Assembly (NCBI RefSeq): GCF_023150065.1
Contig: NZ_JAKLLN010000001.1
Coordinates: 62,001-126,000, forward strand
Source: Zoogloea sp.
GTDB taxonomy: Bacteria > Pseudomonadota > Gammaproteobacteria > Burkholderiales > Rhodocyclaceae
Direction: 5' to 3'
Length of the DNA: 64,000 nt
The stretch's first letter is position 1. Every line of letters begins with the position of its first letter. A program made the position numbers and the translations under genes. Positions 4,488-62,052 of this stretch are shown here, piece after piece. Under the pieces are notes generated by a model. The model did no database searches. It had not been told where the DNA came from and saw only the letters and a list, made by a program, of their open reading frames with translations.

Positions 4488-7067
<2,580 letters not shown>

Positions 7068-7210: not shown

Positions 7211-8194
7211 GTGTCGAACGAATCGCATCACGCTGCACCCAGGCCCATGAAGCGTGCGCTGGTCGTCGTTTACACACAGACGGGCCAGCTGTCCGCCATT
7301 GCCGAGCGCCTGATCGAACCCCTGGTGGCCGAGCCCGGCATCGCACTGCGGGTGGCGCAGCTCCAGCCCCGGGCGGCGTTTCCCTTTCCGTGGCCGTTCT
7401 TCCGCTTTCTCGATGCCTTTCCCGAATCGGCGCTGATGCGCCCCGGCGAGATCGCACCCCTTGAACTCCCCGCCGACGAATCCTACGACCTGGTCATCCT
7501 GTTCTACCAGGTGTGGTTCCTTGCCCCCAGCCAGCCCGTGGCGGCCTTCCTCCTCGGTGACGAGGGCCCCCGCCTGCTGCGCAACAAGCCGGTGGTCACG
7601 GTGGTGGCCTGTCGCAACATGTGGATGATGGCCCACGACCGGGTCCGGGCACGGCTGGCCGAGATCGGCGCCCGGCACCTGGACAACGTGGTGCTCACCG
7701 ACCGCGCCCCCACCCTCGCCACCCTGCTCACCACGCCCCTGTGGTTGCTCACCGGGCGCCGCCAGCCGGTGCCCTGGCTGCCCGCCGCCGGCGTGGCCGA
7801 GGACGACATCCGGCGCAGCATCCGCTTTGGCCGGGCGCTGCGCGACGCCCTGCTGGACGATCGGGAGCAGGGCACGGCGCCGCTGCTGTCCGGGCTTGGC
7901 GCCGTTCAGGCCCGCCCCGAGCTGCTCGTCAGCGAACGGGCCGGCAGCCGCAGTTTCCGCGTCTGGGGTACCCTGCTGCACTGGGCCGGGCGGCCTGGCG
8001 CCTGGCAGCGCCTGCCCCTGCTGGCCTTGTACCTGGTCTTCCTGGTGGCCATCATCCTGACGGTGGTCCCGGTCTCCCTCGCCTTACAGGCGTTTTTGCG
8101 TCCCTTCCTGCGCCGCCATCTCGACGCGGTGAAGGCATCCTACGAGCAGCCCTCGGGCTCCGGCCTTGAACGCCTTGCCCACTATGATTTCTGA
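7211..8194 (+). CDS. darA: DarA-like dialkylresorcinol condensing enzyme family protein
   Basis: Protein of 327 residues resembling DarA, which with DarB builds the dialkylresorcinol head group in Pseudomonas antibiotics and in the flexirubin/aryl-polyene pigments of Bacteroidetes. In published work DarB forms a cyclohexanedione and DarA aromatises it. Supporting motifs are the flavodoxin-like opening RALVVVYTQTGQLSAIAERL and the family segment AFPFPWPFFRFLDAFPES near residues 55-72. A hydrophobic segment near residues 270-295 suggests membrane association. Start: GTG at 7211, or ATG at 7247 (residue 13) just before the conserved strand; neither has a clear ribosome-binding site. Its end overlaps darB by 11 bases. 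First gene of the operon. Confidence 0.8.
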   Translation: MSNESHHAAPRPMKRALVVVYTQTGQLSAIAERLIEPLVAEPGIALRVAQLQPRAAFPFPWPFFRFLDAFPESALMRPGEIAPLELPADESYDLVILFYQVWFLAPSQPVAAFLLGDEGPRLLRNKPVVTVVACRNMWMMAHDRVRARLAEIGARHLDNVVLTDRAPTLATLLTTPLWLLTGRRQPVPWLPAAGVAEDDIRRSIRFGRALRDALLDDREQGTAPLLSGLGAVQARPELLVSERAGSRSFRVWGTLLHWAGRPGAWQRLPLLALYLVFLVAIILTVVPVSLALQAFLRPFLRRHLDAVKASYEQPSGSGLERLAHYDF

Positions 8195-9320
8195 CGTCTT
8201 CATCACCGGTTCGGCCGCCTATCTGCCCCTCGAGCCGGTTCCCAACGAGCGCATCGAGTCCATCCTCGGCATGGTCGGCGGCAAGCCCTCCCGGGCGCGG
8301 CGCATCGTGCTGCGCAACAACGGCATCAAGACCCGCCACTACGCCCTCGACCCCCTCACCCGGGAGCCGGTGATGACCCACGCCCGGCTCACCGCAGAGG
8401 CCATCCGCGCCCTGGGCGATGTCGGCCCGGTGGATTGCCTGGCCACCGGCACTTCCCATGCCGACCAGCTCCTCCCCGGGCATGGGGTGATGGTCCATGG
8501 CGAGCTGGGCTGGCCCCAGCTGGAGGTGGTGTCCCTGGCGGGCATCTGCCTGTCGGGTACCGCCGCCCTCAAGTACGCGGCCATGAGCGTGGCCTCCCGC
8601 AGCGCCCGGCGCGCCATCGCCACGGGTTCGGAGCTGGTCTCGCCGGTCATGCGGGCGAGCCATTTCGAGGCCGAAAGCGAACACCTGGCCCGGGAGATGG
8701 AGGCGCGCCCCGAGATCGCCTTCGACAAGGAATTCCTGCGCTGGATGCTCTCCGACGGGGCCGGCGCCCTGCTGCTGGAGCCGACGCCCCGGCCGGGGCA
8801 GGTTTCGCTCCGGGTGCACTGGATCGAGCTGTTCTCCAACGCCCACCGCCTGCCCGCCTGCATGTATGCCGGCGCCGAGAAGGAATCCGACGGCGGCCTG
8901 CGGGGCTGGGTGCGTTTCCCGGTGACCGACTGGGCCTCCCGTTCCATCTTCTCCCTCAAGCAGGATGTCCGGCTGCTCAACGAACACGTCGCTCCGGTCA
9001 CCCTCACGGATCCCATCCACGCCCTCCAGGCCCGCCATGGCCTCCGCCCCGAGGACGTGGACTGGTTCCTGCCCCATATCTCGTCCCTGTATTTCGCCCC
9101 CATCCTCGAACGCACCCTGGCGGACATCGGCTTCCCCATCCCCACCTCCCGGTGGTTCACCAACTTGGTGGACAAGGGCAACACGGGTTCCGCCTCGCCC
9201 TACATCATGCTCGACGAGCTGATGCGCTCCGGGCGCATCCGCCCGGGCCAGAAGCTCCTGCTCTACGTGCCCGAGAGTGGGCGCTTCTCCAGCGGCTTCG
9301 TCTTCCTGGAGGCGGTCTGA
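8184..9320 (+). CDS. darB: DarB-like ketosynthase III
   Basis: Protein of 378 residues in the FabH/KAS III superfamily, closest by eye to DarB. The N-terminal segment SRARRIVLRNNGIKTRHYAL (residues 34-53) is typical of that branch. The catalytic triad is intact: Cys122 (AGICLSG), His298 (LPHISS) and Asn333 (KGNTGSAS). DarB condenses two beta-ketoacyl thioesters head to head into the ring precursor of dialkylresorcinols. I chose the ATG at 8184 over an in-frame TTG at 8166, because conserved sequence begins directly after it. It overlaps darA by 11 bases, and its stop shares one base with the next start (TGATG), so coupled translation is likely. Confidence 0.85.
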   Translation: MISDVFITGSAAYLPLEPVPNERIESILGMVGGKPSRARRIVLRNNGIKTRHYALDPLTREPVMTHARLTAEAIRALGDVGPVDCLATGTSHADQLLPGHGVMVHGELGWPQLEVVSLAGICLSGTAALKYAAMSVASRSARRAIATGSELVSPVMRASHFEAESEHLAREMEARPEIAFDKEFLRWMLSDGAGALLLEPTPRPGQVSLRVHWIELFSNAHRLPACMYAGAEKESDGGLRGWVRFPVTDWASRSIFSLKQDVRLLNEHVAPVTLTDPIHALQARHGLRPEDVDWFLPHISSLYFAPILERTLADIGFPIPTSRWFTNLVDKGNTGSASPYIMLDELMRSGRIRPGQKLLLYVPESGRFSSGFVFLEAV

Positions 9321-9715
9321 TGGACGTGCAGGACGTGCCCCAGGATGGCAACGCCACCCTCGGCGGCCATCGCAAGGCCGTCTATGCGCGGGGCGCGGGT
9401 GGCACGATTGTGGCGGTGGAGTCCGCCGGCTGGGAGGCCGAAGAGATCGTCACCCTCCAGGCCGTGGATGTCTTCGATGCTTACACCGAGGCGGCCCGGG
9501 CCCGGGTCGTGGCGGGCCAGTCGTCGCCCCTGGAATACTGGATGTACGCCCGCCGCATGGACATCGCCACCTTCGCCCAGAGCTGCGGGGTGTGGCGCTG
9601 GCGCATCCGTCGCCATTTCCGTCCAGCGGTGTTTGCCCGGCTGTCGCCGGCGCTGCTGAATCGCTACGCCGCCGCCCTGGGCATCGCCCCGGAAACACTG
9701 CGGGCCTTGCCATGA
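9320..9715 (+). CDS. Uncharacterised 131-aa protein of the DAR-like operon
   Basis: Small protein of 131 residues that I do not recognise. Its first 60 residues are predicted mixed strand (KAVYARGAGGTIVAVESAG, then an acidic stretch). The C-terminal half is helical and basic, with RRMDIATFAQSCGVWRWRIRRH followed by LLNRYAAALGIAPETLRAL. The last part resembles the recognition-helix region of Cro/Xre-type helix-turn-helix proteins, but the match is loose. It has no signal peptide or membrane segment. Start and stop both overlap the neighbours (1 base with darB, 4 bases with the BtrH-like gene), so it is certainly translated as part of the operon. It could be a regulator or a small accessory protein for the ketosynthases. 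Confidence 0.7.
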   Translation: MDVQDVPQDGNATLGGHRKAVYARGAGGTIVAVESAGWEAEEIVTLQAVDVFDAYTEAARARVVAGQSSPLEYWMYARRMDIATFAQSCGVWRWRIRRHFRPAVFARLSPALLNRYAAALGIAPETLRALP

Positions 9716-10698
9716 GTGCGGACTTCCAGCACCGCCACGCCGCCCACTGCGAAAGCGGCACGGTGGCCAATCTCCTCAACCACCACGGGCTGCCCATCGG
9801 CGAGCCTATGGCCTTCGGTCTCGGCGGCGGCCTCAGCTTCGCCTACCTGCCCTTCGTGCGCATCCAGGAGATGCCGCTGATCGCTTACCGGGTGCCGCCC
9901 CGGGCGATCATCCGGGGGGTGCGCAAGTCCCTCGGGGTGCGCTTCCGCATCGAGCGCTTTGCCAGCGTCGCGGCCGGCGAGGCGCGCCTGGATGCGCTCC
10001 TCGATCAAGGGCAGGTGGTGGGCCTGCAGACCTCGGTTTACTGGCTGCCCTATTTCCCCGAGGACATGCGCTTCCACTTCAACGCCCACAACCTGGTGGT
10101 TTACGGGCGGGAAGGGGACGAGTACCTGATCAGCGACCCGGTGGGTGAGCACCCGGTGCGCTGCCACCGGGACGACCTCAACCGGGCCCGCTTCGCCAAG
10201 GGCATGCTCGCCCCCAAGGGCACCCTGTACTTTCCCGTCGATGTGCCCGGGCGGGACATCCAGCCCAAGGCCATCCGCCAGGCCATCCACCGGGTTGCCT
10301 GGAGCATGCTGGCGCCGCTGCCCATCTTTGGCGCAGGCGGAATCAAAGGCCTGGCCCGCAGCCTGGCCAGGCTCGATCGCACCCGGCCGGACAGCCTGCG
10401 CCTGGTAGGCCACATCGTGCGCATGCAGGAGGAGATCGGCACTGGCGGCGCCGGCTTCCGCTTTCTCTACGCGGCCTTCCTCCAGGAGGCTGCCCAGCAC
10501 GCGGAGCGCCCGGCCCTGGGCGAGTTTGCCGAGCGCCTGATGGACATCGGCGACGCCTGGCGGGCCTTCGCCCTGGCCGCCGCGCGCATGGTGAAAGGGC
10601 GCGACCCCTTTGATCCGCCGGCCCTGGCCGAACACCTTTTTGCCCTTGCGGCGGCCGAGAAGGGCTTCTTCACCGAGCTGAAGGCCGCGGTGTCCTGA
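9712..10698 (+). CDS. BtrH-like (BtrH N-terminal domain) cysteine acyltransferase/hydrolase
   Basis: Protein of 328 residues. The N-terminal half resembles the BtrH N-terminal domain, a papain/C39-like fold; BtrH itself moves an acyl group from an acyl carrier protein to an aminoglycoside in butirosin biosynthesis. A plausible Cys-His-Asp triad is visible: Cys13 in HAAHCESGTVANLL, His126 in FNAHNLVVYG and Asp142 in ISDPVG. The C-terminal half (about 180-328) is helical and matches the DUF4872-like extension often seen after this domain. No signal peptide. The carrier protein four genes downstream is a natural partner, so transfer or release of an ACP-bound acyl chain is a reasonable inference. 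Such genes also occur in flexirubin-type clusters. Confidence 0.75.
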   Translation: MSADFQHRHAAHCESGTVANLLNHHGLPIGEPMAFGLGGGLSFAYLPFVRIQEMPLIAYRVPPRAIIRGVRKSLGVRFRIERFASVAAGEARLDALLDQGQVVGLQTSVYWLPYFPEDMRFHFNAHNLVVYGREGDEYLISDPVGEHPVRCHRDDLNRARFAKGMLAPKGTLYFPVDVPGRDIQPKAIRQAIHRVAWSMLAPLPIFGAGGIKGLARSLARLDRTRPDSLRLVGHIVRMQEEIGTGGAGFRFLYAAFLQEAAQHAERPALGEFAERLMDIGDAWRAFALAAARMVKGRDPFDPPALAEHLFALAAAEKGFFTELKAAVS

Positions 10699-11627
10699 TG
10701 CTGCAGGTCCGCGGGCTCCACTATCGCTATCCGGCAGCGGCGGCGCCGGCCCTGGTGGATTTCAGCCTGGAAGCCCGGCGCGGCGAGATCCTCGGCCTGC
10801 TCGGGCCCAACGGGGCCGGCAAGTCCACCCTGGTGGCCCATCTGGCCGGTCTGCTTCAGGCCGATGGCGGGCAGATCGAGGTGGATGGCGAAGCCCTTGC
10901 CGCGCTGCGCCGCCGCACGCCCGGCTGCATCGCCATCGCGCCCCAGGACTTTGCCTTCTATCCCATGCTGAGCGTGGCCGAAAACCTGCGCTGCTTCGCC
11001 GCCGCCAGCCGCCTGTCCGGCGCGGCAGCCCGGCAGGCCATCGCCCGGACCCTCGCCGCCACCCGCCTCGAAGACTTTGCCGGCACCCGCGCCGAGCACC
11101 TCTCCGGCGGGCTCAAACGGCGCCTCAACCTGGCCATCGCCCTGCTGCCCACCCCCGCGCTGCTGGTGCTGGACGAGCCGACGGTGGGCGTCGACCCCCA
11201 GTCCCGGGCCTTCCTGCTGGACACCGTGCGTGCCCTGGCGGCCTCGGGCATGGGGGTGATCTACGCCAGCCACTACATGGAGGAGATCGAAGCGATCGCT
11301 GATCGCGTGGTGATCGTCGACCACGGCCGGGTGCTCTGCCAGGGGAGCCTGGCCGAACTCCTGGCCCAAGCCCGCGGGCATGTGGAGCTGCAGCTCGAAG
11401 TGCCCCTCGATGCCGCAGCCCTGAAGGCCCTGGCCGGTGAGATCGACGGCCGGCTGGAGGTGGCCGGCGTGCACCTGAAACTCGAGCTCGCCGCCGACGC
11501 CTCGCCGGTGGCGGCGCTGGCCCGCATCGAAGCCCGGGGAGGGCGCATCCGCGATGCCCGCTTCGGGCGTCACAGCCTGGAGCGCCTGTTCATGCGCCTG
11601 ACCGACACCCGGCTGCGGGATCACTGA
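10698..11627 (+). CDS. ABC transporter ATP-binding subunit (exporter)
   Basis: Protein of 309 residues, the cytoplasmic motor of an ABC-2 type exporter whose permease is the next gene (1-base TGATG overlap). Walker A GPNGAGKST at 36-44, signature LSGGLKRRLNLA from 135, Walker B LLVLDEPT with Asp159-Glu160, and a switch histidine in YASHYMEE. The region after about residue 215 is an extra C-terminal domain of the DrrA/CcmA-like drug and lipid exporter type. From its place in the operon it probably drives export of the resorcinol-type product or an intermediate; this is inference. Confidence 0.9.
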   Translation: MLQVRGLHYRYPAAAAPALVDFSLEARRGEILGLLGPNGAGKSTLVAHLAGLLQADGGQIEVDGEALAALRRRTPGCIAIAPQDFAFYPMLSVAENLRCFAAASRLSGAAARQAIARTLAATRLEDFAGTRAEHLSGGLKRRLNLAIALLPTPALLVLDEPTVGVDPQSRAFLLDTVRALAASGMGVIYASHYMEEIEAIADRVVIVDHGRVLCQGSLAELLAQARGHVELQLEVPLDAAALKALAGEIDGRLEVAGVHLKLELAADASPVAALARIEARGGRIRDARFGRHSLERLFMRLTDTRLRDH

Positions 11628-12796
11628 TGCTGCGTGCCCTGATCCGCAAGGAGCTCCTCGCCCTGCTGCGCGACCCCCATGCCCTGGCGGCCCTGTTCGT
11701 GATGCCGGCGGCCTTCATCGTGATCATGTCCCTGGCCCTGCAGAACCTCTACGCGCCCCCCCTGCGGCAACTCGCCTATGCCATCGACAGCGCAAAGGAC
11801 AGCCCCGCGGCCCGGCGCATTAGCGCCACCTGGGCAACGGCCCACGGCAGCCCCAGGCCCCTGCCGGCCACACCCGGCGAGGTCGACGAGGCCCTGCGCC
11901 AGGGGCGCCTGGCCTATGTGCTGACCCTCGACGCCAGCCTGGCCGACGCCCTGGGCGAGCTCGATCCGCCCCGCGCCCCGGTGGTCCGTCTGCGGGTCGA
12001 GCCGGGCCTCGATCAAGGCGCTTTCCGTACCCTGCAGGCCGAACTTGCCGGCGCCGTGGGTGAGCTGCGGGCGGCCCTGTTGCAGGCCAGCCTCACCGGC
12101 GAGAGCCCCCGGGGCAGCCAGTCCATCCTGCCCTTCATGGCCGTCGAGCAGCTGGGCCGCGCCCTGCGCCCGGTCAGCGCCGTGCAGCAGAACGTGCCGG
12201 CCTGGCTGGTCTTCGGCATGTTCTTCGTGGTCACCGCCATCAGCAGCCTCTTCGTGCAGGAGCAGCACAGTGGAGCCCTGGCCCGTCTGGCGGCGCTGGG
12301 CGTGCCCGAGCGTATCCAGATCCTCGCCAAGGCCTTGCCCTATGTGGGCATCAATGCCATCCAGGCAGCCCTGATGCTGACGGTGGGCTGTGCCCTGATG
12401 CCGCTGCTGGGCGGCGAGGCCCTGTCCCTGGCGGGCATCCACTGGCCGGCGCTGCTCATGATGCTGGCCGCCACCAGTGTGGCTGCCATCGGTTTTGCCC
12501 TGCTGCTCGCCTGCCTGGTCCGGACCCACGCCCAGGCCAACACCCTCGGCCCCCTGTGCAATCTGCTGATGGCCGCCCTGGGCGGCATCATGGTGCCCAC
12601 CTTCGTCATGCCCGGGCTGATGCAGCAGCTGGCCCGCCTGTCGCCCATGAACTGGGGCCTGGAAGGGCTGCTCACCGTGCTCCTGCGCCACGGTGATGTG
12701 GCCGAGGCGGCCCCCTGGGCCCTGCGTCTGGCCCTCTTCGGCATCCTCGGGCTGGCCCTGGCGAGCCGGCTTTTTTCCCGCAGAATCACGCCCTGA
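11627..12796 (+). CDS. ABC-2 type permease (exporter)
   Basis: Protein of 389 residues with the ABC-2/YhgE-like layout: cytoplasmic RKELLALLRDPHA, one membrane helix at about 20-40, a roughly 150-residue extracytoplasmic domain, then five hydrophobic helices (from about 195 to 385). It pairs with the ATPase that overlaps it by one base. Homologues export drugs, lipids or polysaccharides. In this operon the likely cargo is the amphipathic product of the Dar enzymes and ketosynthases. A seven-base gap, the only real gap in the operon, separates its stop from the carrier protein. Confidence 0.88.
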   Translation: MLRALIRKELLALLRDPHALAALFVMPAAFIVIMSLALQNLYAPPLRQLAYAIDSAKDSPAARRISATWATAHGSPRPLPATPGEVDEALRQGRLAYVLTLDASLADALGELDPPRAPVVRLRVEPGLDQGAFRTLQAELAGAVGELRAALLQASLTGESPRGSQSILPFMAVEQLGRALRPVSAVQQNVPAWLVFGMFFVVTAISSLFVQEQHSGALARLAALGVPERIQILAKALPYVGINAIQAALMLTVGCALMPLLGGEALSLAGIHWPALLMMLAATSVAAIGFALLLACLVRTHAQANTLGPLCNLLMAALGGIMVPTFVMPGLMQQLARLSPMNWGLEGLLTVLLRHGDVAEAAPWALRLALFGILGLALASRLFSRRITP

Positions 12797-12803
12797 ATAC
12801 ACC

Positions 12804-13073
12804 ATGCACACCCCCGACCCCGCTTTCATCCAGGCCCTGAAGCAGCTGATCCTGGAGGCCGCCGACAAGACCGAGCCCGCCGGTGGGCTGGCCGACGACG
12901 AGATCCTCTTCGGCCCGGACTCGCGCCTGCAACTGGACTCCCTCGACGCCCTGCAGGTCTCCATGGCCATCCAGAAGCGCTACGGCGTGCGCATGCCCGA
13001 CAGCAAGGAGACCCGCCGCGCCCTGGCCTCCCTGTCCACCCTCGCCGCCCACCTGGCCGAACGCCTGTCGTGA
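12804..13073 (+). CDS. Acyl carrier protein
   Basis: Protein of 89 residues with the phosphopantetheine attachment motif LQLDSLDALQ, where Ser46 is the predicted carrier serine. Acidic four-helix pattern typical of ACPs. It would hold the growing or finished acyl chains for the two ketosynthase-family genes that follow and for DarB; darC plays this role in Pseudomonas. Its end overlaps the next start by four bases (GTGA). Confidence 0.88.
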   Translation: MHTPDPAFIQALKQLILEAADKTEPAGGLADDEILFGPDSRLQLDSLDALQVSMAIQKRYGVRMPDSKETRRALASLSTLAAHLAERLS

Positions 13074-14146
13074 GTGTTGCCGGCAGCTACCTGCAGGGGC
13101 GTGGGCTGGCCTGCGCCCTGGGGCTGGACCTGCCCCGTGCGCTGGCCCGCCTGGCCGCCGGTGGCGTGCGCCCCGCGATGTTTGAGAGTGCCCCGGATGC
13201 CTTCTTTCCGGCCTTCACTATCCCCGATGCCGATCCGGACTGGCACGCCCGCGGTCGCCGGCTGGTGCGTGCCGCGGTGGCGGAGTGCGGCCCGGTGGAC
13301 CGCAGCGCGCCGCTCTTTCTGGCGTCCTCGTCCCTCAACGTGGGGGCGCTTGAACAGGGCTCGCCCTTCCTGCCCGACTGCCAGCGTTTCGCCGAGGACG
13401 TGGCCGGATGGCTGGACTGGCGCGGGCCGGTGTTCTGGGTGTCCACCGCGTGCACCTCGTCCATCGTGGCCCTGCTCAGCGCCCACCGCCTGATTGGCGC
13501 CGGGGAGGCGGATTCGGCCCTGGTGCTCGGGCTGGAGCTGACCAACCGCTTCAGCAGCGCCGGCTTTGGTGCCCTGCAGCTCCTCGATCCGCAGGCGCCG
13601 CGCCCCCTGGCGGCAGATCGGGCCGGCCTGGTGCTCGGCGAGGCCGTGGCGGCGGTCTGCCTCGGGCGCAAGACGGCCCGCTGGCGACTGCGCGGCGGCG
13701 CCAACCGGGTCGATGGCAGCAACCCGGCCGGGGCCTCCCGCCATACGGTCGAGCGCATGGTGCACGCTGCCCTGGCGGATAGCGGCATCGGCGCGGCCGA
13801 GGTGGATCTGATCAAGCTCCAGGCCGCCGGCAGCCCCCACAACGACGCGGAAGAGATCGCCGGGCTCAAGGCGGTCTTTCCCTGTCTGCCCGCGCTGGGC
13901 ACCCTCAAGGCCAGCATCGGCCACACCCTGGGCGCCGCGGGCGCGGCCGAGCTGGCCCTGCTGACGGCCTGCATCGACGCCGGGATATGGCCCGAGCCGC
14001 CGGGCTGTGCGCCCGATCCCGATCTGGCGGTGGCCCTCGCGCCCCGTCGTCCGCCACGGCTGCGTTTCATCCTCGCCCAGATCCTCGGCTTTGGCGGTGG
14101 TCATGCAGCCCTGGTGCTCGAAGACTGCCAGGAGAGCCTGTCATGA
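13070..14146 (+). CDS. Beta-ketoacyl-ACP synthase (KAS I/II type) with an altered active site
   Basis: Protein of 358 residues, shorter than FabF (about 410). The nucleophile is present as Cys128 in STACTSSIVAL, and the second histidine motif is intact (Lys280 and His285 in TLKASIGHTLGAAGA). The first histidine motif, normally AHGTGT, reads LQAAGS here, so the usual catalytic His is Gln251. Such a change should impair classical decarboxylative condensation. The protein may need its partner encoded next, use a non-malonyl donor, or act as an acyl transferase. GTG start at 13070, within the stop of the ACP gene. Four-base overlap with the next gene. Confidence 0.85.
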   Translation: MSVAGSYLQGRGLACALGLDLPRALARLAAGGVRPAMFESAPDAFFPAFTIPDADPDWHARGRRLVRAAVAECGPVDRSAPLFLASSSLNVGALEQGSPFLPDCQRFAEDVAGWLDWRGPVFWVSTACTSSIVALLSAHRLIGAGEADSALVLGLELTNRFSSAGFGALQLLDPQAPRPLAADRAGLVLGEAVAAVCLGRKTARWRLRGGANRVDGSNPAGASRHTVERMVHAALADSGIGAAEVDLIKLQAAGSPHNDAEEIAGLKAVFPCLPALGTLKASIGHTLGAAGAAELALLTACIDAGIWPEPPGCAPDPDLAVALAPRRPPRLRFILAQILGFGGGHAALVLEDCQESLS

Positions 14147-14748
14147 AGCTTTGGCGCATCGTCGGCCGTCACTTTGACGATCCGCCCCCGGACGACTGGC
14201 GCCAGCGCCTCGCCACCCGCCTGGGCGAGCGCCCGCGGCGGGTGGGGGCGTGGGTCGAGCTGGCGCTCTACGGTGCCCTCCAGTGTCTGGACGACGCCGG
14301 TGAGGCCGGCCTGCCCGACGCGGCCCTGCTCAGCCTGTCCACCCTTCACGGCCCGGACATCGCCCTGCGGGCGGCCCTGGCCGAGGCCCATGACGGCCTG
14401 CCCCTGCCCATCGGCTTTCTCACCAGCCAGCCGGGCCAGGCGCTGCCGGCCCTGGCCCGCTACCTGAACTGGCACGGGGAGGGGCGCTGCCTGTCCAGCC
14501 GTGCGCCGGCCCTGGCGCTGCAACTGGCCTGCATCGAGGCCGGCCCGGCGGGCCTGCTGGCCGGCTGGGTGGACGAGGACGGGCCCGGCCGCAGCCTGTG
14601 GTTGCGGCTGCTGCCCGAGCCCGGCCCGGCGCCAACCCTGGTCGGCGGCGTGTTCGAGACCCTGGCCGATCCGGCCGTGACCCACCTGGCCCTGACCGGT
14701 GCGCAACTGCACCTGGGCCGTTCACCCCTGGAGCGCGCCCATGGCTGA
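14143..14748 (+). CDS. Ketosynthase N-terminal-like protein (chain-length-factor type partner)
   Basis: Protein of 201 residues resembling the short family with a beta-ketoacyl synthase-like N-terminal domain (Ketoacyl-synt_2), found beside ketosynthases in aryl-polyene and similar clusters. The order of segments fits: an N-terminal basic stretch, LSLSTLHGPD, PIGFLTSQPGQALPALARYL, then SSRAPALALQLACIEAG at the place where a real ketosynthase has its active-site cysteine. No nucleophilic Cys lies at that site, so it is probably a non-catalytic heterodimer partner of the preceding ketosynthase that shapes the substrate tunnel. This is inferred from order and from KS/CLF pairs. Overlaps both neighbours (4 and 8 bases). 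Confidence 0.7.
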   Translation: MKLWRIVGRHFDDPPPDDWRQRLATRLGERPRRVGAWVELALYGALQCLDDAGEAGLPDAALLSLSTLHGPDIALRAALAEAHDGLPLPIGFLTSQPGQALPALARYLNWHGEGRCLSSRAPALALQLACIEAGPAGLLAGWVDEDGPGRSLWLRLLPEPGPAPTLVGGVFETLADPAVTHLALTGAQLHLGRSPLERAHG

Positions 14749-15772
14749 CGACTTCATCAGCCCCGAATACATCCTCAGCATCGGCACCGGTTTCAGTGCC
14801 GCCAAGACCCTGCTCAGTGCGGTGGAGCTGGACGTGTTCACCGCGCTGGCCCGCCAGCCCGGCAGCGCCGCCGACCTGGAGCAGCGTCTGGGCCTGCACC
14901 CCCGCTCGAGCCGCGATTTTCTGGATGCCCTGGTGGCCCTGGGCTTCCTGGAGCGCCAGGACGGCATCTACACCAACACTCCGCCGGCGGCCCGCTATCT
15001 CGACCGGGAGAGCGAGTCCTGCATCGCCGCGCTGCTGGAGATGGTCAATCAGCGCCTCTACCTCTACTGGGCCAATCTCACCGATGCCCTCAGAACCGGG
15101 GCGCCGCAGAACGAGCTGAAGCAGGGCGGCGAGACCCTGTTCTCGGCCCTCGCCGCCGATCCACACCGGCACCGCCAGTTCCTGAGCGCCATGACGGCCC
15201 TGTCGCGGGGGGCCAACCAGGCCATCGCCCGCAAGTTTCCGTGGGGCAATTACACGCGCTTCGTCGACCTCGGCACCGCCCAGGGCGATCTGGCTGCCCA
15301 GGTGGCCATCGCCCATCCCCACCTGCGTGGCACCGGCTTCGACCTGCCCACGGTCGCCCCCATCTTTGGCGATCACACCACCCGTCTGGGGGTGGCGGAG
15401 CGGGTCGGGTTCATGGCCGGAGACTTTTTCCGTGATGCACTGCCAGCCGCCCAGGTGATCGTGATGGGGCACATCCTGCATGACTGGGACCTGCAGGAAA
15501 AACGCTTCCTGATCGCCAAGGCCTACGCGGCCCTGCCGCCCGGCGGCGCCCTGATCGTGTATGAAGCCATGATCGACGACGCCCGGGAGAGCAGCGTCCA
15601 GGGGCTGCTGATGAGCCTTACCATGCTGATCGAGACCCGGGGCGGGTTCGACTACAGCGCGGCGGACTGCATCGGCTGGATGACGGAGGCGGGCTTCCAG
15701 GGCTGTTACCGGGAGAGGCTGACCGGGGCGGATGCCATGGTGGTGGGCTTCAAGGGGCAGGCTATTCCATGA
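14741..15772 (+). CDS. SAM-dependent O-methyltransferase (family 2, COMT/hydroxyneurosporene type)
   Basis: Protein of 343 residues. The N-terminal part is a winged-helix dimerisation domain (about 10-95); the C-terminal part is a Rossmann methyltransferase with SAM motif VDLGTAQGDLA at 175-185 and the segment GHILHDWD, in which His247 aligns with the catalytic histidine of plant and bacterial O-methyltransferases. It would methylate a hydroxyl group. As the last gene of the operon it probably caps a phenolic OH of the resorcinol made by DarA/DarB (inference). It overlaps the preceding gene by eight bases. No clear terminator follows. Confidence 0.88.
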   Translation: MADDFISPEYILSIGTGFSAAKTLLSAVELDVFTALARQPGSAADLEQRLGLHPRSSRDFLDALVALGFLERQDGIYTNTPPAARYLDRESESCIAALLEMVNQRLYLYWANLTDALRTGAPQNELKQGGETLFSALAADPHRHRQFLSAMTALSRGANQAIARKFPWGNYTRFVDLGTAQGDLAAQVAIAHPHLRGTGFDLPTVAPIFGDHTTRLGVAERVGFMAGDFFRDALPAAQVIVMGHILHDWDLQEKRFLIAKAYAALPPGGALIVYEAMIDDARESSVQGLLMSLTMLIETRGGFDYSAADCIGWMTEAGFQGCYRERLTGADAMVVGFKGQAIP

Positions 15773-15882: not shown

Positions 15883-16365
15883 ATGCAAGAAGACGACGAC
15901 AACCAGAACCTCGTACTGGGCATCCTGTTCGGCATCATCGCCCTGGTGATCGGCCTGGTGATCGGCCTGACCGTTTACGTCACCGGCCAGACCAATACCA
16001 AGACTGCTCCGGTTGCCGCCGTGGCCGAAGTGCCCGAGATCGCCGAAGTGGGCGAAGCCCTGGCGAAGCTCTACTTCGACTCCGGCAAGGCTGATCTGCC
16101 CGCCAATGCCGCCGATGAAGTGGCCAAGGTCGTCGCCAAGCTGCAGGAAGATGCCAGCAAGATCGTGCTGATCTCCGGCTACCACGACGAAACCGGTGGC
16201 GCCGCCGTCAACGCCGAAGTGGCCAAGGCCCGTGCCGTGGCCCTCAAGGACGCCCTGATCGCTGCCGGCGTGCCGGCCGACAAGGTGGCCATGCGCAAGC
16301 CCGCCGTGACCCTGGGTGGCACCGATGCCGCCGAGGCCCGCCGCGTGGAAGTGCGCGTGCAGTAA
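15883..16365 (+). CDS. Membrane-anchored OmpA-domain protein
   Basis: Protein of 160 residues with a short acidic cytoplasmic N-terminus (MQEDDDNQ), one membrane helix at about 10-33, and an OmpA/MotB-like peptidoglycan-binding domain (about 55-160). Features of the domain are LYFDSGKADLPANAADEV, ISGYHDETGGAAVNAEVAKARAVALKDAL and a C-terminal RRVEVRV. It is smaller than typical OmpA family members and has no beta-barrel, so it probably tethers the inner membrane to the wall. It has an AAAGGA ribosome-binding site and an independent -10 box, and a strong terminator follows, so it is monocistronic. Confidence 0.85.
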   Translation: MQEDDDNQNLVLGILFGIIALVIGLVIGLTVYVTGQTNTKTAPVAAVAEVPEIAEVGEALAKLYFDSGKADLPANAADEVAKVVAKLQEDASKIVLISGYHDETGGAAVNAEVAKARAVALKDALIAAGVPADKVAMRKPAVTLGGTDAAEARRVEVRVQ

Positions 16366-60780: not shown

Positions 60781-62052
60781 ATGCAGTTGCCTGAAACTCT
60801 TGATGGCTGGCTGGGCCTGCTGGAGGCCCGCCATGGTCAGTCCATCCAGCTCGGGCTGGATCGGGTGCGGACGGTGCGGGATGCCCTGCAGCTTCCTCAG
60901 ACCTGCCCGGTCTTTACCGTGGGTGGTACCAATGGCAAGGGCTCGACCTGCGCGCTGCTCGAGGCCGTGCTGCTCGCTGCCGGGTATCGGGTCGGGGTGT
61001 ACACCTCTCCCCATCTGCTGCGCTACAACGAGCGGGTGCGGATCAATGGGCGTGATGCCACCGATGGCGTGCTCGTGGATGCCTTCGCGGAAGTCGAGCG
61101 TGCACGGGGCGACATTCCCCTGACCTATTTCGAACATGGAACCCTGGCGGCCTGGGCGGCGTTCTGCCACGCCGGGCTCGATGCGGTGATTCTCGAAGTG
61201 GGCCTGGGTGGGCGTCTTGATGCCGTCAATGTCTTCGAGCCCGATTGTGCCATCGTCACCAGTGTGGCCATGGATCACATGGATTACCTCGGCGACACCC
61301 GCGAAGCGATTGGTTTTGAGAAGGCCGGAATCTTCCGCGCGGGTCGTCCGGCAATCTGTAGTGATCCCATGCCGCCGGCCTCGCTGGTCGAGCATGCGGA
61401 AGCGATCGGTGCAAAGCTCTGGGTCAGCGGTCGCGATTTCGGTTTTTCCGGCGACCAGAACCAGTGGGCGTTCTGGATCGCGGGTGGTAGTCGACGGGGT
61501 GGGTTGGCCTATCCGTCACTGCGAGGTACCAACCAGTTGCTGAACGCGGCGGCGGTGATGGCGGCCTGTGAGGCTGTCCGTGATCTGCTTCCGGTGCCCA
61601 TGCAGGCGGTGCGCCAGGGGTTCATGCTGGTGGATCTGCCCGGGCGTTTCCAGGTTTTGCCGGGCCGTCCGACGGTGGTGCTCGATGTCGCCCATAATCC
61701 CCAGGCTGCCGGTGTGCTGAGTGAGAACCTCGCCAGCATGGGATTCTTCCCTGAGACCTGGGCGGTGGTCGGCATGCTCGCCGACAAGGACGTGGCCGGC
61801 GCCGTTCGCCTGCTGCGGGATAGGGTCGACCATTGGGTTGTCGCGAGCCTCCCCGGCCCTCGGGGGCTGGAAGCACAGAGGCTTGCTGCGATCCTCCGCG
61901 AGTGCGGTGTTGCCGGTGGCATTTCTGAGTGCGCCTCGCCTCAGGAGGCCTACGCGCTGGCACATGAGCAGGCGGCCGAGGGTGATAGAATCGTGGTCTT
62001 TGGCTCTTTCCTGACCGTGGCAGACGTGCTTGCCGCCCGGAAAGCCCCGTAA
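60781..62052 (+). CDS. folC: Dihydrofolate synthase/folylpolyglutamate synthase
   Basis: Protein of 423 residues of the Mur ligase family. P-loop TVGGTNGKGSTCALLEAVL, the Mg-binding LEVGLGGRLDAVNVF, TSVAMDHMDYLGDTREAIGFEKAGIFR and the C-terminal domain start (VLDVAHNPQAAGVL). Adds glutamate to dihydropteroate and folates. ATG at 60781. Confidence 0.95.
   Translation: MQLPETLDGWLGLLEARHGQSIQLGLDRVRTVRDALQLPQTCPVFTVGGTNGKGSTCALLEAVLLAAGYRVGVYTSPHLLRYNERVRINGRDATDGVLVDAFAEVERARGDIPLTYFEHGTLAAWAAFCHAGLDAVILEVGLGGRLDAVNVFEPDCAIVTSVAMDHMDYLGDTREAIGFEKAGIFRAGRPAICSDPMPPASLVEHAEAIGAKLWVSGRDFGFSGDQNQWAFWIAGGSRRGGLAYPSLRGTNQLLNAAAVMAACEAVRDLLPVPMQAVRQGFMLVDLPGRFQVLPGRPTVVLDVAHNPQAAGVLSENLASMGFFPETWAVVGMLADKDVAGAVRLLRDRVDHWVVASLPGPRGLEAQRLAAILRECGVAGGISECASPQEAYALAHEQAAEGDRIVVFGSFLTVADVLAARKAP

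Follow-up and report, generated by a model that had tools for sequence, protein, structure and literature searches.

We propose that the ten-gene operon at positions 7211 to 15772 provides, with high probability, the dialkylresorcinol (dar) part of a pigment pathway of the arcuflavin type, the polyene half being made in trans from another contig of the same genome (C196). As predicted from the sequence, the pathway most likely leads to a polyene-resorcinol ester resembling arcuflavin and not to a free methylated resorcinol. Apart from the altered active site of its ketosynthase DarJ, the operon is most likely an ordinary one for the most part, and the pigment type, a yellow pigment of the membrane, has already been described. 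The window, that is, the whole 64-kb stretch of DNA that was analyzed, covers positions 62001 to 126000 of contig C111 in an assembly of 5.2 Mb and 251 contigs (97.85% complete, 1.07% contamination).

All ten open reading frames listed for the operon lie on the + strand with their frames open, and they adjoin through overlaps of 11, 1, 4, 1, 1, 4, 4, and 8 bases in gene order plus a single 7-base gap, a tight layout that agrees in coordinates and junction sizes with the preliminary description of this DNA. The operon begins with darA (7211..8194, from GTG 7211 or ATG 7247), encoding the ring aromatase/condensing protein, which is assigned from its position, from a Q-[ST]-G-Q-L stretch conserved among 66 aligned rows, and from the gene order in Table 1 of the Azoarcus paper (PMC3949708). 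The next gene, darB (8184..9320), encodes a KAS III-type ketosynthase of the StlD/DarB family that scores over the cut-off of NCBIfam NF005293 (547.7 bits, cut-off 450) but under that of the stricter NF053539 (445.5, cut-off 550), and its Cys122, His298, and Asn333 are invariant in 71/71 aligned rows. Behind darD and darE come the exporter genes darF (10698..11627; ABC transporter ATPase, PF00005, 104.9 bits) and darI (11627..12796; ABC-2 type permease, PF12698, 74.5 bits, and PF01061, 69.3 bits), then darC (12804..13073), an acyl carrier protein gene (PF00550, 22.9 bits, cut-off 20.8) with an attachment Ser46 invariant in 67/67 aligned rows. The last three genes are darJ (13070..14146), a ketosynthase matching PF00109/PF02801, darK (14143..14748), a chain-length-factor-like partner of darJ with 201 aa, and an O-methyltransferase gene (14699..15772, from GTG 14699 or ATG 14741; PF00891, 126 bits, and PF08100, 49.9 bits). 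Profiles support the earlier view that genes of the DarA/DarB type share one operon with a dedicated exporter and confirm eight of the ten identities first given (DarB to the ketosynthase, and the O-methyltransferase), while that of DarA comes from position and motif and that of the ketosynthase-like partner DarK from its fold; no Pfam or NCBIfam model matched either of these two proteins at an E value of 0.01.

Two of the genes are named differently in different sources: the Azoarcus paper calls that of the 131-aa protein darD and that of the BtrH-like protein darE, where NCBIfam has DarG and DarH, and it uses darG and darH for small PHD/PilT-like genes (PMC3949708). DarD (9320..9715) matches the DarG_fam model NF053536 (160.1, cut-off 70), and in its structure model (pLDDT 90.8) a beta-hairpin and a long helix accompany a helix-turn-helix-like bundle; small DNA-binding proteins in the PDB match this fold weakly (best E value 4e-3). 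DarD is present in every aligned dar locus (42 rows), and a W-x-W-[RT]-[IV] region of its C-terminal helix-turn-helix-like bundle is strongly conserved. We do not conclude that DarD is a proven transcription factor, as no PDB fold matched at an E value of 1e-3 or below and the profile matches were marginal. DarE (9712..10698) is a BtrH-like acyltransferase recognized by NF053550 DarH_acyl (455.5 bits, cut-off 300), PF14399, and PF16169; its Cys13, His12, His122, and His126 are invariant in 7/7 rows, and it is 95% identical to its counterparts in the dar loci L021 and L022, from which we take the host to be a Zoogloea-like bacterium. When the BtrH-like protein was compared with plasmids, 59 records matched, all below 60% identity.

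The closest described system is that of Azoarcus sp. BH72, whose dar cluster comprises azo0283-0293 and is listed in Table 1 of PMC3949708 as darA, darB, darD (hypothetical), darE (BtrH-like), darF (ABC ATPase), darG/darH (PHD/PilT-like), darI (permease), darC (ACP), darJ (ketosynthase), and darK (hypothetical). The window shares the content and order darA-B-D-E-F-I-C-J-K, darK being matched by position and fold and darA by position and motif, not by profile, and in both organisms the polyene genes lie in trans. Azoarcus differs from the window in that the two PHD/PilT-like genes separate darF from darI and in that its dar table holds no O-methyltransferase. As reported there, the Azoarcus polyene comes from two arc loci linked neither to each other nor to dar, arcK and arcT mutants are colorless, and arcuflavin is a xanthomonadin-dialkylresorcinol hybrid in which a xanthomonadin-like polyene is tied to the resorcinol; both cluster types are also reported from Dechloromonas aromatica, Variovorax paradoxus, and Sideroxydans lithotrophicus (PMC3949708). 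The mutants described in that paper are in polyene genes and not in dar genes, which is a point against carrying its reading over to the window (PMC3949708). Our own literature search found no paper joining Zoogloea, aryl polyene, and resorcinol, and the present reading would extend arcuflavin-like pathways to a Zoogloea-like organism.

The preliminary description had stressed that aryl-polyene genes were missing, and this holds for the 64-kb window, where 18 polyene-cluster proteins gave only cross-matches to darJ and darC. At the genome level the premise fails, because a search with DarJ reached a polyene cluster of the arcuflavin/xanthomonadin type (arc/xan gene set) on C196. In its stretches L005 and L006, profiles identify a halogenase-like FAD enzyme, an FkbO/Hyg5-type chorismatase, MipA, two acyltransferases, a family 2 glycosyltransferase, a FabG-type reductase, a methyltransferase, a polysaccharide deacetylase, an MMPL exporter, LolA_3, an ACP, and a further ketosynthase. 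They also recognize a ketosynthase of the PRK09185 model (512.7 bits, cut-off 407), which is accompanied by a Ketoacyl-synt_2 partner. C196 therefore holds, in the window's own genome, an arc gene set with a XanB2-like chorismatase and an AMP-ligase. The chorismatase scores well over the cut-off of PF21168 (136.3 bits, cut-off 27) but under that of TIGR04444 (233, cut-off 325), and the FlxB-type reductase, at 277, is under the 340 cut-off of the most specific model; both shortfalls count against the arcuflavin-type reading. Two proteins of 145 and 228 aa, which match no profile, were equated with arcI and arcU by position alone, and one gene was called antiporter-like from visual inspection. 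The cluster methyltransferase is 84% and 79% identical to homologues in two Zoogloea MAGs, which makes contamination an unlikely origin of C196.

This cluster departs from the Azoarcus arrangement in that the polyene genes were found in one cluster and not in two loci, and in that one fused protein combines the AMP-ligase with a FabA/ApeI-like dehydratase domain (L006, 1837-3480), the Azoarcus arcS and arcT being separate (PMC3949708). The flexirubin system of Chitinophaga pinensis shares DarA/DarB and a polyene-resorcinol ester, and its polyene cluster likewise has genes for a LolA-like protein, an acyltransferase, a glycosyltransferase, and an exporter (PMC3992019). It starts from tyrosine through an ammonia lyase (PMC3992019), whereas the starter enzyme of the window's genome is the chorismatase; no ammonia lyase was present among the profile-searched ORFs of C196. 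A halogenase-like FAD enzyme (L005, 5829-7376; PF04820, 121 bits) opens the C196 cluster, and a halogenated pigment is thus possible.

The product first envisaged was a free resorcinol or cyclohexanedione lipid bearing an O-methyl group, with the ABC pair as its exporter and no dependence on any polyene cluster. We now consider this improbable and demote it because of the polyene cluster in the same genome, which undercuts the independence of product and acyl chains from aryl polyene, as it does in Azoarcus BH72. It was attractive since the window is free of polyene genes, the operon encodes an O-methyltransferase and an ABC pair of its own, and free dialkylresorcinols are known, being named in PMC3949708. 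Heterologous Dar proteins do give free resorcinol, but the compound was not detected in Azoarcus itself (PMC3949708). It had been stated beforehand that polyene genes elsewhere, regulated together with the operon, would tell against a polyene-free lipid; the first part, genes in trans, is what C196 provides.

Relatives of the operon point the same way. An alignment of seven DarE sequences was used as the query against genome contigs, and the best 80 of at least 568 relatives were kept and all scanned. The nine dar genes of the window are kept in order and strand in 20 of these best 80 loci (in L037 darA is cut at the contig end), and a further 16 of the 80 have darA to darJ in order with no darK detectable by tblastn; downstream of darJ in 8 of these 16 loci, a ketosynthase-like ORF was seen in five (L044, L046, L048, L050, and L072). 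In other loci contig ends interrupt the operon, and many gammaproteobacterial loci have the genes split over two strands. As polyene markers we took LolA_3 and the PRK09185 ketosynthase, each over its cut-off, in the 44 dar genomes searched out of the 80 loci. Each marker was found in 39/44 genomes, and at least one in 41/44, which argues against a free lipid. Among the 33 closest of the dar genomes examined (L021-L053, four labeled only "Proteobacteria" and the rest betaproteobacterial), all 33 carry at least one marker and 30 carry both, the two lying on one contig within 15 kb in 16 of the 30; in L034 and L040 polyene genes directly adjoin dar. Against the arcuflavin-type reading, three of the 44 (L054, L055, and L057) have neither marker; weaker polyene-type genes lie beside dar in two of these and, less clearly, in the third. 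In a 300-genome order sample, DarH matched at an E value of 0.001 in 10 genomes, in 7 of them over cut-off; LolA_3 occurred in all 7 of the latter versus 84 of the 293 others, which take in the three genomes with below-cut-off DarH (Fisher p 2e-4, relatedness ignored). The figure of 84/293 also means that polyene clusters are common without dar, a further point against the arcuflavin-type reading. Hence, a dar operon without adjoining polyene genes should not be taken as polyene-free.

The same conservation bears on whether the operon could be a silent or decaying remnant, as might be read from its upstream region, which gave a single weak promoter-like match (9/12). With ten open frames, invariant catalytic residues in DarB and DarC, and a gene order retained in distant genera, we regard this as extremely improbable.

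The DarJ/DarK pair is where the operon is least ordinary. DarK has a structure model of pLDDT 87.2 (14 sequences) that matches 7f28_C (E value 4e-6) and ApeC, 6qsp_B (E value 1e-5), and a profile comparison with the ketosynthase-like partner of the polyene cluster gave a probability of only 65. Judged from this model, DarJ and DarK are a predicted ketosynthase/chain-length-factor pair of the ApeO/ApeC type, namely, a ketosynthase with a ketosynthase-fold partner devoid of an active site. By sequence DarJ is related to 6qsp_A, and the DarK model matches ApeC; unlike in ApeO/ApeC, the first catalytic His is absent from the DarJ of the window, and DarK has only 201 aa. Instead of the Cys-His-His condensing site of the KAS I/II type, the window DarJ keeps the Cys, the Lys, and the second His, and the change of the first His to Gln also shows when HMMER aligns DarJ to 7f28_B and 6qsp_A. 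The first His of a ketosynthase is needed for decarboxylation, and a ketosynthase without it should decarboxylate poorly. Our literature search found no paper tying the loss of this His (H298Q included) to lost decarboxylation.

DarJ could be taken from 60 of the best 80 loci (of at least 568) and from the window; the remaining 20 have contigs too short, no ketosynthase, or, beside darC, a ketosynthase better read as ArcK (L065, L067, and L073), with the His kept in L065. The Cys is kept in 61/61 sequences and the Lys and second His in all 60 complete rows; at the position of the first His, 30 sequences have Gln and 30 have His. In a midpoint-rooted tree built from the window, ArcK, and 59 loci, with active-site columns included, 32 of the loci group with the window on one supported branch (99/95) that reads QAA in 30, HAA in 2, and HCG in 1, with no HGT, and the other 27 loci keep the first His (HGT in 23, HAT in 4). 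ArcK, FabF, and the second polyene-cluster ketosynthase of the window's genome keep it as well.

Gln in 30 of the 33 clade sequences suggests that DarJ is a ketosynthase-fold acyltransferase, and it weakens the earlier proposal that the local ketosynthase pair supplies the acyl chains. We put forward, tentatively and as a rather doubtful proposition in its full form, that DarJ/DarK of this mostly betaproteobacterial clade would be an aryl-polyene-type ketosynthase/chain-length factor that lost decarboxylation through the His-to-Gln change and now may act as an acyltransferase, moving the polyene or acyl chain between carriers or forming the polyene-resorcinol ester. A normal condensing pair, elongating and supplying a fatty beta-ketoacyl chain to DarB, has a somewhat better chance, a little short of even. 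The retained Cys, Lys, and second His, the aryl-polyene-type condensing enzymes that are the closest solved relatives, and the first His of the 27 DarJ outside the clade all speak for condensation, and the Gln in 30/33 clade rows, the window among them, speaks against it, the other three being the two HAA and one HCG rows. The enzyme forming a polyene-resorcinol ester is only proposed in the available text of PMC3949708 and PMC3992019, the latter naming the ligase-like FlxW for flexirubin. In the window, the ketosynthase pair without the first catalytic His and the BtrH-like protein are the candidates for joining polyene and resorcinol.

In the arcuflavin-type pathway that we favor, and by analogy with published work on the family, DarB would join two fatty-acid-derived chains and DarA would aromatize the ring, DarC would carry an acyl chain, and DarJ with DarK would serve as the ketosynthase/chain-length-factor-like pair. 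The polyene acid would be made in trans by C196 (chorismatase, AMP-ligase, ketosynthases, ketoreductase, and ACP), and DarE or the DarJ/DarK pair may form the ester between polyene and resorcinol. DarF/DarI together with the MMPL and LolA-like proteins of C196 could then move the lipid toward the outer membrane, and the O-methyltransferase, the last gene of the operon, might add a lineage-specific methyl group, making an O-methylated pigment variant possible.

The O-methyltransferase noted earlier in the operon is real by its PF00891 match, and, together with the active-site change of DarJ, it goes beyond the published Azoarcus cluster. It adjoins dar in only 2 of the best 80 of at least 568 loci, in Zoogloea (L021) and in a Rhodocyclaceae genome (L023), and close homologues (94% and 64%) occur in only 2 of the 33 closest dar genomes, five others having matches of 24 to 28%. 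No match to the O-methyltransferase came from the 3.0-Mb Zoogloea MAG of L022, where the dar contig stops after darI; its absence may reflect missing sequence. We rejected the idea that the gene is a relocated arcuflavin methyltransferase, since an ArcM-like gene is still present in the C196 cluster and in 29/33 of these relatives.

Around the operon, inspection by eye showed a ClpB-like chaperone gene before it (4488-7067) and a gene for an OmpA-like lipid-anchored or membrane protein after it (15883-16365). On C111, ahead of the window, two squalene/phytoene-synthase-like genes and one FAD desaturase-like gene were likewise seen by eye (L007, 7723-10708).
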